From assembly GCF_014692875.1 (NCBI RefSeq), contig NZ_CP061171.1, forward strand, positions 4,278,001-4,342,000: a DNA stretch of 64,000 nt, given 5' to 3'. Each line of letters opens with the position of its first letter. Position 1 is the stretch's first letter. The position numbers were made by a program, and so were the translations under genes. Origin of the DNA: Pedobacter riviphilus (GTDB lineage Bacteria > Bacteroidota > Bacteroidia > Sphingobacteriales > Sphingobacteriaceae). This document shows positions 11,798 to 63,562 of the stretch, piece by piece. The notes beneath the pieces are model-generated. The model did no database searches. It was not told where the DNA came from and worked only from the letters and a program-made list of their open reading frames with translations.

Positions 11798-13329
11798 TTA
11801 TTTTACACTAAACGCTAATGAAGGCAAAATTTTCTGACGGCCGTCTGGTCCTACAGAAACAATATCTTCAAAAAACACTCTTGTACCAGGTGTAATCGAG
11901 TTTATTGCACCTTTAACCGCACCAGCGAAACTTCCACCACTACCCGGAATGGTAACAGCATCAGAACGCGGTTTGATAATTGTTAATTTATAACGCAGTA
12001 TTTTAAACTTAACATCGAAAGGGAAATCATCCAGATCGGCTTCAATTTCGGTTTCGCTTTTTAGCTGTACCGAAGCCACATCTCCTCCAGCGCGACCACC
12101 AACTTTAGCTACCGGAGCAGGGATACCTTTCACCCTGAATTTTTGCGAGCCTAAGCTAACGGTTTTGCCAGCATTACTTGCCGATACATTGATGGATACT
12201 TCCTGACCAACCATACTTCCTGGAACATTAACATTATAGTTTCCGTTACCACCAGACATTGAACCCCAGAAATGGAAGCACGAATACTTTCTAACGGGAA
12301 ACCTGCTGCTGATACTGTAAATGGATTAGGAATACCCGCATAAATTACATTCAGTTTTGTTGAAGAAACAGATGCTGACGGTTTTGCAACTTGATAAGTT
12401 TGTGGTTGAGTTTTATATTCCTTTACCTGACCATCAGTTTGGCGAACACGAACCGTACCAACCCATGTAAACTGACCAACACTACTTGTACCACCGGTAT
12501 AAGTTCCTTTACCATCTTTAACGGATAATTTACTTCCATTAACAGTAATATCAGGAGTTGATCTCGAATCGCTGGCTGTTAAAAATACTTCAGCAGTATA
12601 AGGTTGCCCTTGAATTACATAAGAAGTAGGTGCTACTGCAACTGCCGCAAACTGATCCAAATTAACCTGTGCTTTATCCATATTTCCGAATAATTTCTTA
12701 ACCACCTCTGCTTCAGCATTTTTAGTATCTGTTTGCAGTTTTGTTAAAATCGTCATTGCAGCAGTTAATGGCGTGCCCTCACCAAAGTAAGTTTCTTGCC
12801 AGTTTCCTTTTCTTTTTCTTGCAGGATCTTTAGCTTCAAGAGAGAATGAAACATTCGCTCTATCATTTTTGTCTAACAAAGAGATTAATTTTTCGCGTGT
12901 GGCATTAATTCTCTTTTTTAATTCATCTGCTTTTTTTTGATTAATCATGATATTCTGTGCAATATCCTGATTTGATCTATTTACCAAATCTTCAGTTTCT
13001 GGATCAATTCCATCACCTGCCTTGGTAAATTCTTTTTTAATGCTTTCAATATAATTATTTAAGTCATCAGCGGCCTTCTGTGCTTCTTTTGCCTTATCGT
13101 AAATTGGCTGTGCACGGGCTGGCTCTTCTTTCAACTTCGAATTTTCGAAGGCAGAAAATAACTGATTAATGCTTGTATTTACATTGTTTTTAGAAGTATC
13201 CAAACTATCATTGATATTTTTGAATGCATCTAAAATGGTATCTGATACGTTTAAGGCGAGCATGGCCAACAATACCAAATACATGATATTGATCATCCGC
13301 TGCCTTGTTGTTTCTTTTCCGCCTGCCAT
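11798..13329 (-). CDS. gldM: Gliding motility / T9SS motor protein GldM (frameshifted as sequenced)
   Basis: GldM is the periplasmic shaft of the T9SS motor; its N-terminal helix pairs with GldL. The N-terminal part (frame 13329 to 12151) has the single membrane helix MINIMYLVLLAMLALNVSD and the long helical D1 region, and reads in frame to IRASISG. The C-terminal domain is in another frame (stop at 11798; opening SGGNGNYNVNVPGS). The switch is at a run of four C on the plus strand (12265-12268). One extra base there gives IRASISGGSMSGGNGNYNV and a continuous protein of about 510 residues, the normal size. All four gld genes are otherwise intact. I therefore infer a base-call error; a real frameshift would disable T9SS. 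Confidence 0.9.
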
Positions 13330-27726: not shown

Positions 27727-28823
27727 ATGAGAGGTTTTCGTTTTTCTGATTATAAGCCGGGCGATACGCCAAAGGGTGGGTTCGATGAGTTGCTGAAATT
27801 ATTTAGCGAACTGCTGAATTATACAGCTGGAGATGCGACAGAGGCTTTAAGCTGGCTGAACGAGCTCGACAAACAATATAAATTAACCAATAACGATTAT
27901 GGTATCGGTAATTTTATCGATGACCTAAAAGACAAAGGTTACCTAACTGAAGATAATCAATCGGGAGAATTTAAAATTACAGCCAAAACTGAACAGACGA
28001 TCCGTAAATCGGCCCTTGATGAAATTTTCGGAAAACTAAAAAAATCAGGGCGCGGAAATCACAATAGTAATCAATCAGGCGTTGGTGAAGAAAAAAATGC
28101 CGACAGACGTGAATACAGTTTTGGAGATAGTTTGGATCAGATTGATATGACGGCCTCTATCCACAATGCGCAGATTAACCATGGTATTGGCGACTTCACT
28201 TTAACAGACCACGATCTGGAAGTAGAGGAAAAGGATTTTAAAACCTTAACCTCTACTGTATTGATGATTGATATTTCGCACTCGATGATTCTGTATGGCG
28301 AAGACCGGATTACCCCTGCCAAAAAAGTTGCCATGGCTTTGCCGAACTGATTAAAACGAAATATCCTAAAGACACTTTAGACATTGTGGTTTTCGGAAAT
28401 GATGCCTGGCCAATTAGCGTAAAAGACCTGCCTTATTTACAGGTTGGTCCTTACCATACCAATACTTATGCAGGATTAGAATTGGCTGCAGATTTACTCC
28501 GTCGACGGAAAACGCATAATAAGCAGATTTTCATGATTACCGACGGAAAACCGACCTGCTTAAAGGAAAATGGCAAATACTATAAAAACAGCATGGGTTT
28601 GGATAGGAAGGTAATTAACAAAACCTTAAACATGGCTGCCCAGTGTAAGCGACTGAAAATTCCGATTACGACATTTATGATTGCCAAAGACCCTTACCTG
28701 CAACAATTTGTTCGCCAGTTTACCGAAATTAATGGCGGCAGGGCTTTTTATAGCTCCTTAAATGGTTTGGGCGAATACATTTTCGAAGATTATATTAAAA
28801 ACAGAAGAAAAACAGTAAAATAA
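27727..28823 (+). CDS. VWA-domain protein paired with a MoxR-type ATPase (frameshifted as sequenced)
   Basis: A protein of about 365 residues when restored. The N-terminal half is helical and ends in a Gly/Asn/Ser-rich linker (KSGRGNHNSNQSGVGE). The C-terminal half is a von Willebrand factor A domain with the MIDAS start MIDISHSM and a later FMITDGKPT. As sequenced the frame stops at 28350 after KVAMALPN. Adding one T to the TTT at 28338-28340 gives KVAMAFAELIKTKYPKDTL and joins the frame to 28823. I infer a base-call error. VWA proteins next to MoxR AAA+ ATPases form chaperone-like pairs that activate or remodel protein complexes. Confidence 0.82.
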
Positions 28824-57295: not shown

Positions 57296-58635
57296 ATGTT
57301 TAAAAAAATACTAATTGCCAACAGGGGTGAAATCGCTTTGCGTATTATCCGTACCTGTAAGGAAATGGGCATCAAAACGGTTGCTGTTTACTCTACTGCA
57401 GATCGCGAGAGTTTACACGTACGTTTTGCTGATGAGGCTGTTTGTATTGGCCCCCGCCTAGTAAAGATTCTTATTTAAATATCCCAAATATTATCTCGGC
57501 TGCAGAATTAACTAACGCCGATGCCATACACCCAGGTTATGGTTTCTTATCAGAAAATGCTAAGTTTTCTAACATTTGCCGTGAGTATAACATCAAATTT
57601 ATTGGTGCTACCCCAGAGCAGATTAATGGCATGGGCGATAAAGCTTCTGCAAAAGAGACCATGAAAATTGCCGGTGTTCCAACCATCCCAGGATCTGAAG
57701 GCTTGCTTACCAGCGTTAAAGAAGGTATTGCAATTGCCAATGAAATGGGCTACCCGGTTATCTTAAAAGCTACTGCCGGCGGCGGTGGCCGTGGTATGCG
57801 TGTGGTTTGGAAAGATGAAGATTTCGAAAATGCCTGGGACAGTGCACGTCAGGAATCTGGTGCAGCATTTGGTAACGATGGTTTATATTTAGAAAAATAC
57901 ATTGAAGATCCACGTCACATTGAAATCCAGATTATCGGAGATCAGTTTGGCAAAGCCTGCCACTTATCAGAACGCGATTGTTCAATCCAGCGCCGTCACC
58001 AGAAATTGGTAGAAGAATCTCCTTCTCCTTTCATGACTGACGAACTCCGCCAGAGAATGGGTGAAGCAGCAATTAAAGGAGCAATGGCTGTAAATTATGA
58101 AGGAGCAGGTACAATCGAATTTTTGGTTGATAAACACCGTAACTTCTACTTTATGGAAATGAACACCCGTATCCAGGTAGAGCACCCAGTTACCGAAGAG
58201 GTGATTAATTTCGATTTAATTAAAGAACAGATTAAAGTGGCTGCCGGAATTCCGATTTCAGGTAAAAACTATACCCCTGAAATGCACGCTATTGAGTGCC
58301 GTATCAACGCAGAAGATCCGGCAAATAACTTCCGTCCTTCTCCAGGTAAAATCACGAATTTCCATTCGCCAGGTGGCCATGGTGTTCGTGTTGATACGCA
58401 CGTTTATGCTGGTTATTCAATTCCTTCGAATTATGATTCGATGATTGCAAAATTAATCTGCGTGGCCCAAACCCGCGAAGAGGCCATTTGTACCATGGAG
58501 CGTGCGCTTAGCGAATTTGTAATTGAAGGGATTAAAACGACCATTCCTTTTCATTTACAGTTGATGAAAGATCCTAACTTCAGGGCAGGTAATTTCACTA
58601 CGAAATTTATGGAAACATTTGAATTTTCGGAATAA
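57296..58635 (+). CDS. accC: Acetyl-CoA carboxylase biotin carboxylase (AccC; frameshifted as sequenced)
   Basis: AccC carboxylates biotin on AccB. The N-terminal part from 57296 ([20 protein letters not shown]) stops at 57478. The rest reads from another frame (opening [19 protein letters not shown]). The switch is at a run of five C (57451-57455); six C would give [14 protein letters not shown] and one continuous protein of about 446 residues. Downstream are the ATP-grasp region ([16 protein letters not shown]), [15 protein letters not shown] and the C-terminal domain. AccC is normally essential, so a base-call error is the best explanation. Confidence 0.93.
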
Positions 58636-60097: not shown

Positions 60098-61732
60098 ATG
60101 AACAAAAAGTTTTTAACCCTTGGCTTGGTATCGCTTGTTACCGCAAGTTGCTTCAGCCAAATTAAGCCGCTTAAACCTAATCCTGATGCGATAAGGTTTA
60201 GCAAGGCCATTAACTCAGAGAACGCTTACAAACATCTTTCTGTTTTAGCTTCTGATGAATATGAAGGCCGCGAAACAGGTACAAAAGGTGCCTGGATGGC
60301 TGCTGATTATATCCGTGATTATTTTCAATCGCTGGGATTAAAAGCACCGGTAAATGGTAGCTATTTCCAAAAAATAGATTTAATCAATTATACTGTTAAC
60401 GAAAGTGTACTTACGATTAATGGACAGCCAAAACAAGTTAATAAGGATTTTCTAATTCCAATCACCTCGGTTGGTCCTAATGGCTTTATATTTAATACAG
60501 ATGAAATCGTTTTTGCAGGTTATGGAATTAACAGGGAGGATTATAATGATTTTGAAGGTCTGAATCTTGAAGGAAAGGTTGTAATGATCTTTTCGGCCTC
60601 ACCGCTTACCGCTGGCACCGAAAAACCAACTCCCCGTAGCCTAGCCATGGCAAGGCAGAAAAAAATATCATATCTGGCACAGAATAAAGCAAAAGCAGTG
60701 ATCTTAATCGACACGGATTTCGATAAATTGGCTGATTATTCTAAAACTACTGCAATAACCGGTAGGTTAATGCTAAAAAACAAAGAAACCGAAATTGCTT
60801 TGCAGAAACAGAATCCATTTAATGTTATCACCATTTCTGAGGCAACAGCTAATGATATTTTTAAGGCTGCAGGTACGTCTGTACAGGATATAGCAAAAAA
60901 AATATTAGAAAGTAAAAAACCGGCTTCTCAAACAATAAATATTTCACTATCGGCAAGTTCACGTAAAAAAGAAAATGAAGTGCGTGGGGAGAATGTCCTG
61001 GGTTTCTTAGAAGGATCTGATCCAAAATTAAAGAAAGAGATTCTAATCATTACAGGTCACTATGACCACATTGGTATCACTCCGGATGCTGTAGGTACAG
61101 ATAAAATAAACAACGGTGCAGATGATGATGGATCGGGCACCACTGGTGTTTTACTAATGGCAAAAGCATTTGTAAATGCAAAAAAAGCTGGAAAAGGCCC
61201 CAAAAGGAGCATTTTATTTATGACCGTAGTTGGTGAAGAAAAAGGACTTTTTGGATCTGAGTGGTACTCAGAGCACCCGGTTTTCCCTGTTGAAAATACC
61301 ATTGCAGATTTAAATACCGATATGATCGGCCGTACAGGTGAAGAGTATCTGGGCAAACCCGATTCGGCCAATTACATCTATTCGGTTGGTTCGAATATGT
61401 TAAGTAGCGAATTGGGCAAATTAAGCGAACAGGTAAATGCAACCTATACCAAAATGAAGCTTGATTATAAATACGATGATCCAAAAGATCCGGAACGGAT
61501 ATATTACCGGTCTGACCACTATAATTTCGCTAAACTAGGTATTCCGATCATCTTCTACTATGATGGCATGTTACAGCAGGACTACCACAGACCTGGTGAT
61601 GAAGTAAGCAAAATTAACTTTCCACTTTTATCCAAAAGGGCAAAATTAACCTACTTTACCGCATGGGAACTGGCTAACAGACCTAAACGTCCAGCAGTGG
61701 ATATGGATGGAAAAGGTAATCTGAAAAAATAA
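60098..61732 (+). CDS. M28-family aminopeptidase, exported
   Basis: A 544-residue zinc peptidase. A signal segment ends near VTASC, with Cys at residue 18 as a possible lipobox. A PA-like inserted domain lies between about residues 130 and 280. The zinc-peptidase core has ITGHYDHIG, NNGADDDGSGTTG, VGEEKGLFGSEWYSEH, and later NTDMIGR and SDHYNFAKLGIP. These are the M28 metal ligands and the catalytic Glu-Glu. It probably trims peptides in the periplasm or at the surface. Confidence 0.9.
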   Translation: MNKKFLTLGLVSLVTASCFSQIKPLKPNPDAIRFSKAINSENAYKHLSVLASDEYEGRETGTKGAWMAADYIRDYFQSLGLKAPVNGSYFQKIDLINYTVNESVLTINGQPKQVNKDFLIPITSVGPNGFIFNTDEIVFAGYGINREDYNDFEGLNLEGKVVMIFSASPLTAGTEKPTPRSLAMARQKKISYLAQNKAKAVILIDTDFDKLADYSKTTAITGRLMLKNKETEIALQKQNPFNVITISEATANDIFKAAGTSVQDIAKKILESKKPASQTINISLSASSRKKENEVRGENVLGFLEGSDPKLKKEILIITGHYDHIGITPDAVGTDKINNGADDDGSGTTGVLLMAKAFVNAKKAGKGPKRSILFMTVVGEEKGLFGSEWYSEHPVFPVENTIADLNTDMIGRTGEEYLGKPDSANYIYSVGSNMLSSELGKLSEQVNATYTKMKLDYKYDDPKDPERIYYRSDHYNFAKLGIPIIFYYDGMLQQDYHRPGDEVSKINFPLLSKRAKLTYFTAWELANRPKRPAVDMDGKGNLKK

Positions 61733-61799
61733 TTTCCATAGTTTATTTTTTTTACTACATTGTTCTTATCATTTTAACCTTTTAAAATCTTTAAAATTT

Positions 61800-62023
61800 A
61801 TGAAAAAACTTAGTAGAAATGAAATGAAAGTTGTTAATGGGGGGTTGCTGCTGTTGCTTATGAATGCTGTGTGTACACAGATACAGAAACAGGAGGTTTT
61901 TACAGACGTTGTGGTCTTACTGAACAAGCAGCGCAAGATCTTGTGGATGATGGTGGTGCCGATCCTAATATGAATTCATATTATGAATGTGGTGGGACAT
62001 ATCATTTTCCAGGGGAGTGGTAA
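61800..62023 (+). CDS. Double-glycine-leader Cys-rich peptide precursor (frameshifted as sequenced)
   Basis: The ATG at 61800 opens MKKLSRNEMKVVNGG, a leader of the Bacteroidota type that ends in Gly-Gly. As sequenced the frame then gives LLLLLMNAVCTQ and stops at 61973 (57 residues). If the run of six G (61839-61844) has seven, the frame continues as VAAVAYECCVYTDTETGG, then four-Cys polar sequence, to SYYECGGTYHFPGEW and the stop at 62021-62023 (74 residues). The restored core (59 residues, Cys at 8, 9, 23 and 49) is far more natural, and a strong terminator follows. Such peptides are usually cut after GG and exported by a peptidase-containing ABC transporter, which I do not see in this window. 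Confidence 0.7.
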
Positions 62024-62039
62024 TAAATTTAAAAATTAT

Positions 62040-62066
62040 GTCCCGGGTCAATCTCGGGACTTTTTT
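62040..62066 (+). terminator. Terminator after the GG-leader peptide gene
   Basis: Stem GTCCCG (62040-62045) / CGGGAC (62055-62060) followed by tttttt. It sits 17 bases after the restored stop codon, which supports the longer reading of the peptide. Confidence 0.8.
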
Positions 62067-62176
62067 ATGCACATTACTTTTGGTGCCTACATAAATTCCT
62101 ATCTTTGGTTTTTAACGAAGTAGCGCCAAACTAAAAGTAGCTATTCTTCGTTACCCCTATAATAATATTGCCATTG

Positions 62177-63562
62177 ATGAAAACTGCCGAGGAATTTTTA
62201 GAGAAATCTGATGAGAAAGCTTTCGATTTACCGCACCGCAAAACCATAAATTATAATATTGGTAAATACAATGCAGCTGTTGAACGGGGTTTATCAAAAT
62301 TCGAAAATTTAGAGGCATCCAAAAAAAAGGCACACGTAATTAAATGGCGTGTAATGGAAAACCTTGATAAATTCTTACCGGAGTTTGAATCAAATTTCCA
62401 ACGTCGGGGCGGTAAGGTAATCTGGGCCAATAATGCTGAAGAAGCCCAACAGGAAATTCTCAACATCATCAAAAGAAACAACGGCAAAACAGTTATCAAA
62501 TCAAAATCGATGACCACCGAGGAAATCCACTTAAACGATTTTCTGGAAAAAAACGATATCGAATCTTTAGAAAGTGATTTGGGCGAATATATCGTTCAAT
62601 TGCTTGGTCAGGCTCCATACCATATTGTTACTCCCGCCATGCACTTAAGTGCAACAGATATTGCACAGTTATTTCACGATAAATTTGGCACACCTATCGA
62701 TGCCACTCCCCCTCAGCTGGTGCAAAAAGCAAGGGAATTACTCCGCGATAAATACTTAAATGCTGATATCGGTATTAGCGGTGGCAATTTTTTAATAGCC
62801 GATACCGGAAGTATTGCCTTGACGGAGAATGAAGGTAATGCGCGTTTAAGTACCACTTTCCCAAAAATCCATATTGCCATAGTAGGCATCGAAAAGGTAA
62901 TTCCTTCTATAGCAGACCTTGATCTTTTCTGGCCTTTACTGGCATCACATGGAACCGGTCAGAACTTAACGGTTTACAATACCATTTTAAGTGGTCCACG
63001 CCAACCTAATGAAACAGACGGGCCAGAAGAAATGTATGTGATTTTGCTGGATAATGGCCGAACCAATTTATTGGCACAAAAAGATCAAAGACAAGGCTTG
63101 TATTGCATCCGTTGCGGTGCGTGTTTAAATGCTTGTCCGGTTTATAAAAATATCGGTGGTCACACTTATAACACAACCTATAGCGGGCCTATCGGTTCGG
63201 TAATCACCCCTCATTTAAAGGGCATGGAAGAATTTAAACATTTAAGTTATGCTTCTAGTCTTTGCGGTAAATGTTCTGAGGTATGCCCGGTAAAAATCGA
63301 CATCCACAAAATGCTCCTGCTAAACCGAAGGGATGCCGCCTCAGGGCATGAAAACGGCAAAAAAGAGGAAATTGGTTGGAGCATGTTTAGCAGAATGATG
63401 CAAAAACGCAAGTGGATGGATTTCTTTGGTGGGAAATTTAAAAATTTTATGCTTAGCACTTTCTTTAAAAAGAGTTGGGGCAAATACCGCGAAATGCCAA
63501 AAGTTGCCGATAAATCTTTTGCTAAACAATGGGAAGAATTGAAAAAAAATAAGGAGTCTTAA
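62177..63562 (+). CDS. LutB-like iron-sulfur lactate utilization protein
   Basis: A 461-residue protein of the LutB/LldF group. An N-terminal LUD domain (SKSMTTEEIHLNDFLEKNDI; GNFLIADTGSIALTENEGN) precedes two 4Fe-4S motifs, CIRCGACLNACPVYKNIG and SSLCGKCSEVCPVKIDIHK. The C-terminal region is basic. It belongs to the non-flavin lactate dehydrogenase complex in other bacteria; lutA and lutC are not beside it here. The ATG at 62177 is used (a TTG lies at 62168). Confidence 0.87.
   Translation: MKTAEEFLEKSDEKAFDLPHRKTINYNIGKYNAAVERGLSKFENLEASKKKAHVIKWRVMENLDKFLPEFESNFQRRGGKVIWANNAEEAQQEILNIIKRNNGKTVIKSKSMTTEEIHLNDFLEKNDIESLESDLGEYIVQLLGQAPYHIVTPAMHLSATDIAQLFHDKFGTPIDATPPQLVQKARELLRDKYLNADIGISGGNFLIADTGSIALTENEGNARLSTTFPKIHIAIVGIEKVIPSIADLDLFWPLLASHGTGQNLTVYNTILSGPRQPNETDGPEEMYVILLDNGRTNLLAQKDQRQGLYCIRCGACLNACPVYKNIGGHTYNTTYSGPIGSVITPHLKGMEEFKHLSYASSLCGKCSEVCPVKIDIHKMLLLNRRDAASGHENGKKEEIGWSMFSRMMQKRKWMDFFGGKFKNFMLSTFFKKSWGKYREMPKVADKSFAKQWEELKKNKES

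Follow-up and report, generated by a model that had tools for sequence, protein, structure and literature searches.

The window, which is the whole 64,000-nucleotide stretch of Pedobacter riviphilus DNA analysed here, covers bases 4278001–4342000 of one 5.83-Mb contig; positions below are window positions unless stated otherwise. Two neighbouring genes that form conserved flanks were identified on the forward strand from the open reading frame (ORF) list and a domain scan: an M28 peptidase gene upstream (60098..61732) and, downstream (62168..63562), a gene for a LUD-domain/4Fe-4S protein, which we take to be LutB-like. Between them, on the same strand, a 15-residue double-glycine (GG) leader, MKKLSRNEMKVVNGG, begins at an ATG and occupies 61800..61844, as recognised by its NF047798.1 profile score and a pattern scan. 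The GG motif coincides with a run of six G (61839..61844), read directly from the sequence, and this is where the frame breaks. As written, the ORF continues to 61973 and encodes 57 aa, hydrophobic past the leader (61800..61973, forward strand). Translated from base 61844 in the −1 frame, the sequence gave instead a polar core of 59 residues with four Cys, followed by a stop ending at 62023 (P0001; 61844..62023, forward strand). Re-reading of the sequence thus returned the coordinates and description that the first-pass annotation had given for 61800..62023, including both the hydrophobic 57-mer and the four-Cys core. A hairpin scan also located the terminator that had been placed after the core, as a terminator-like hairpin followed by a T run (62040..62060, forward strand). 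It has 8 pairs, 6 of them G-C, and starts 16 bases past the core stop; one such site was found vs. a shuffle mean of 0.2. In relatives, a hairpin-like sequence and T run were seen by eye at the corresponding position 3′ of the peptidase gene. No promoter-like site was found on the strand of the peptide gene, in a scan confined to particular promoter types.

The leader scored 25.9 bits (E 7.8e-06) against the NCBIfam model NF047798 (leader_Chryseo, "bacteriocin-like protein"), which has a curated cut-off of 23.5, and 26.4 bits when the whole genome was searched. Matches to this model at E 0.001 or better occurred in 12 of the 145 genus genomes, this one included, and 11 exceed the cut-off. The putative peptide resembles the listed genus members in its leader above the curated cut-off, its short precursor and, in the shifted frame, its Cys-rich core; it differs in that blastp with the core hit none of the other peptides listed, and the model itself comprises 18 positions and describes the leader alone. 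Against NF047792 (CCPGW family putative bacteriocin, cut-off 80 bits), only the leader part matched, in the as-written frame and at 15.4 bits, and the core alone gave no match. Within the window, the leader pattern occurred once and in 0 of 100 shuffles, a lenient comparison in that the pattern was devised after the leader was seen. Judged by this leader, the predicted peptide is a member of the wider GG-leader group: the leader ends in Gly-Gly before the core, and a C39-peptidase ABC exporter is encoded in the same genome.

Applied to the genome collection, the leader pattern yielded three loci (L123–L125), in a Chitinophagaceae UBA2793 genome and two Mucilaginibacter genomes. These share 13 of 15 leader residues and a Cys-rich core with the P. 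riviphilus peptide, but have other core sequences and other gene neighbours, and their frames are intact. No C39 exporter was recognised by eye among the ORFs surrounding them, with short upstream DNA for L123 and L125; an ABC-transporter-like ORF lies 5.7 kb away from the peptide of L125. Short DNA matches to the start of the leader in seven relatives were taken as chance or A-rich starts, as none reads as a GG peptide. The P. riviphilus genome itself carries further GG peptides. One of 60 aa with four Cys, intact and above the NF047798 cut-off (L140:5971-6153; G000:C1:4263971), lies ~76 kb from the peptide at 61800 with no C39 match nearby, and two adjacent four-Cys GG peptides lie on the minus strand at contig positions 5741482-5742210 (L139; G000:C1), without a C39 match alongside.

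The two frames past the leader were compared by codon use, using a score trained on 174 ORFs of at least 150 aa from 264 kb of this genome. Among in-frame pieces the shifted core ranked at the 12th percentile, and it exceeded practically all off-frame pieces. The as-written frame fell at the 0.3 percentile, a rough figure as its 42 scored codons were compared with pieces 59 codons long. Off-frame ORF pieces stayed open across 59 codons in 76 of 10,000 draws (53/5000 and 23/5000). G+C content by codon position in the as-written frame was 0.50/0.17/0.67, vs. 0.46/0.35/0.35 in the ORFs of the genome.

A second comparison set the cores against those of 30 further GG peptides, taken from this genome and from the genus, all of which hold 3–6 Cys with a hydropathy of −0.84 to 0.22; these are not a random sample, because they were found via the leader and read in the frame of the leader. 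The shifted core (four Cys, hydropathy −0.47) resembles them, whereas the as-written core (one Cys, hydropathy 1.10) lies outside their range in both respects. Five of the peptides came from this genome, four of them under the family cut-off, and 25 from the genus. From the nine rows of the leader search in this genome we excluded the peptide itself and three loci that by eye are not GG peptides (L015, L016 and L018), and kept L014 although it has no ATG in frame. All 25 rows from other genomes were included, and extra small ORFs from a looser leader scan, near C39 genes and elsewhere, were left out. That the 57-residue frame is the product, as a leader followed by a hydrophobic peptide, is hardly credible given its codon score, its G+C pattern and its position beyond the comparison peptides, even though it is the ORF of the sequence as given; the as-written ORF is probably not the actual product.

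Frame breaks in this assembly were surveyed using the genes of a relative, G087, as queries over two stretches (276 genes). Genes broken here numbered 11 of 164 in the first stretch (~171 kb) and 4 of 112 in the second (~142 kb). Each of the 15 breaks has a single-base deletion in this genome as its nearest indel, with further indels at least ~70 bases off in some alignments, and some of the 15 may be real mutations. With both stretches added, the compared coding sequence holds 11 G/C runs that reach at least six bases, and a break lies at 3 of them, a small sample in which the other 8 runs are not at a break; the corresponding figures are 4 of 503 for G/C runs of four and 1 of 769 for A/T runs of at least six. 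G/C runs of five gave 1/33 and 1/25 in the two stretches; the latter case adjoins an alignment gap located ~100 bases away from its break. As a control, the genes of G104, an assembly of ~30 contigs, were broken in 0 of 54 cases relative to this window and 1 of 59 relative to G087, and 3 of 51 window genes were broken relative to G104. G087, a single contig, was itself broken in 12 of 161 genes relative to this genome and 5 of 55 relative to G104; breaks of this sort are consequently not peculiar to this genome.

Within the window, a one-base deletion also breaks accC (biotin carboxylase, 57296-58635) relative to two relatives. This gene is normally essential, and its break is probably an assembly error. 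In two more window genes (11801-13329 and 27727-28820), comparison with both relatives likewise revealed a frame broken by the loss of a single base. The estimated completeness of the genome is 97.73, below that of most genomes listed in the site search. Given the break statistics, the controls, the broken accC and the lower completeness, the base lost at the G run was most likely dropped during assembly, a case that is statistical in nature. Together with a leader above the family cut-off and the codon use of the core, these statistics indicate that a GG-leader peptide gene very probably exists at the locus and has been masked by the loss of one base, as the first-pass annotation had proposed.

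The six G could also be genuine and the gene a recent pseudogene in this strain. Such a break would be recent, because the codon use of the core remains gene-like. Real breakage seems to occur in the GG-peptide group too: one of the 30 other peptides, L026 (genome G135), carries an in-frame stop that seems to shorten it, whereas the frame of the paralogous L025 continues there. That the others are mostly whole says little, since the search that found them relied on intact leaders, and the leader also set the frame in which they were read. However, single-base deletions are frequent in this assembly, with long G/C runs as their likeliest sites, and accC is broken as well, which a living cell could hardly bear. 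On this balance, we regard a true frameshift as unlikely.

Alternatively, the six G may be both real and used, through slippage of the ribosome or RNA polymerase or through cell-to-cell variation in G-run length. Slippage or a length change at the GG motif would then act as a switch between a secreted Cys-rich peptide and a dead hydrophobic product. Judging from the sequence, a −1 slip on the run could still allow full re-pairing of the P-site tRNA, but the RNA fold after the run is not unusual (z −0.06) and the standard slippery heptamer, by the usual rule, is absent. Six G is also short for polymerase slippage, and the deletion pattern of the assembly accounts for the run without slippage. 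A real and used run of this kind is therefore very improbable, and so is the switch that it would provide.

Nucleotide search showed that the peptide gene sits in an islet of ~290 bp. With 61700-62300 as the query, the best-matching relative, G104, aligned to query positions 1-34 and 351-601, which it separates by 26 bases; the islet-bearing stretch (61734..62049) measures 316 bases here vs. those 26. Some match to the query was found in 99 of the 145 genus genomes, merely a short one in a few, and the best 29 besides this genome (L045–L073) were read at the site. The peptide gene was absent from this site in 29 of 29, and both neighbour genes were present in all. The intergenic gap measured 95-157 bases in 17 of them and 452-863 bases in 12. 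The longer gaps mostly hold a small ORF, with or without a second ORF that we take to be PIN-like, the pair presumably being of toxin-antitoxin type. The small ORF and PIN-like ORF occur together at the site in L053, L054, L056, L063, L066–L070 and L072, shortened in some; L052 has the small ORF alone and L055 only a remnant. In L052, L053 and L055, which were read as DNA, the small ORF or remnant sits 3′ of a hairpin. The peptide gene was either gained here or lost elsewhere, and gain is the simpler. Its absence from the 29 relatives fits a decaying piece of DNA as well, and in this the islet favours the pseudogene.

Searches with the core returned no homologues among relatives. None was found in 145 genus genomes or 400 order genomes except the peptide itself, and 399 family genomes, in sets that overlap with these, gave the peptide itself and one weak match. 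That match, in G231 (E 0.025), has three internal stops and was taken as chance. Phage and plasmid records gave no core homologue, short exact peptide patterns of the core were absent from genome contigs and viral contigs, and the core matched no Pfam or NCBIfam model and, by blastp, none of the 31 listed GG peptides. Since core homologues are absent from all of the searches made, no ortholog displays the intact frame. The first-pass annotation had named two findings that would together speak against it, reads confirming six G and a lack of homologues of the 74-residue form; in searches with the core as query, no homologue was found, which corresponds to the second of these. The locus is very probably a genuine gene, ordinary and known in kind, whose core is an orphan in the collections searched.

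The presence of a C39-peptidase ABC exporter elsewhere in the genome, suggested earlier as a check, was investigated by profile search. Seven C39 matches above the cut-off were identified, one within a VKOR-thioredoxin protein and six in frames of 713-759 aa. Of these six frames, the one tested combines a C39 domain with the membrane and ATPase domains of an ABC transporter, which makes it a C39-ABC exporter. There is no C39 match within the window, the nearest being ~389 kb away, and no exporter or thiol oxidoreductase gene occurs among the six scanned neighbours, which encode the M28 peptidase, the LUD/4Fe-4S protein, an E1 dehydrogenase, RpiB, TatC and the biotin carboxylase. An exporter locus was identified at ~5.559-5.565 Mb of the contig (L133:8018-13673), where a C39-like/VKOR/thioredoxin protein, a GG peptide, a C39 ABC exporter and an HlyD-family protein are encoded in that order. 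The GG peptide of this locus has 92 aa and six Cys, and its leader end, LSKAEMKNVLGG, is similar to that of the peptide at 61800, LSRNEMKVVNGG. A second GG-type frame, L014, follows at this locus. Judging by its gene content, the locus might serve to oxidise, cleave and export peptides rich in Cys.

The predicted peptide was compared with the bacteroidetocins. In the account of Coyne et al. 2019 (PMC6671954), these peptides have a GG leader of 15-16 residues, a mature peptide of about 35-50 residues, and at least two Cys, with four in A and B; genes for an exporter, a membrane protein and usually a thiol oxidoreductase lie close by. By that account, the P. riviphilus peptide is alike in its 15-residue leader with a terminal GG and, in the shifted frame only, its four Cys, but differs in a core of 59 residues and in having no exporter or thiol oxidoreductase gene among its scanned neighbours. 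Because core length and the lack of adjoining exporter genes depart from this description, we did not file it as a bacteroidetocin, although it may well work like one.

We propose that a real gene would yield a precursor of 15 leader and 59 core residues, which would be carried to a C39-peptidase ABC exporter encoded elsewhere, in trans, either at the 5.56 Mb locus or at another. The exporter would cut after Gly-Gly and the core would be secreted, its four Cys probably forming two disulfides. Based on the leader, the coding character of the core, the break statistics and the exporter genes, we consider it likely that the locus holds the gene of such a precursor, which would be cleaved at the GG motif and exported in trans, and that the break at the G run is an assembly error. 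Once secreted, the core would most likely be a small bacteriocin-like peptide directed at other bacteria, an antibacterial role that we judge separately and for which the chances appear about evenly balanced.

Where a long G run encodes the GG motif and an assembly drops bases, a gene of this kind can be broken precisely at the junction of leader and core and so be missed by gene finders. For the whole group this would matter little, since the six-G run is present in only 1 of the 31 listed peptides. The locus would add an orphan peptide with an unmatched core to the secreted peptides of Bacteroidota type, the members of which were recognised here solely from their leaders.
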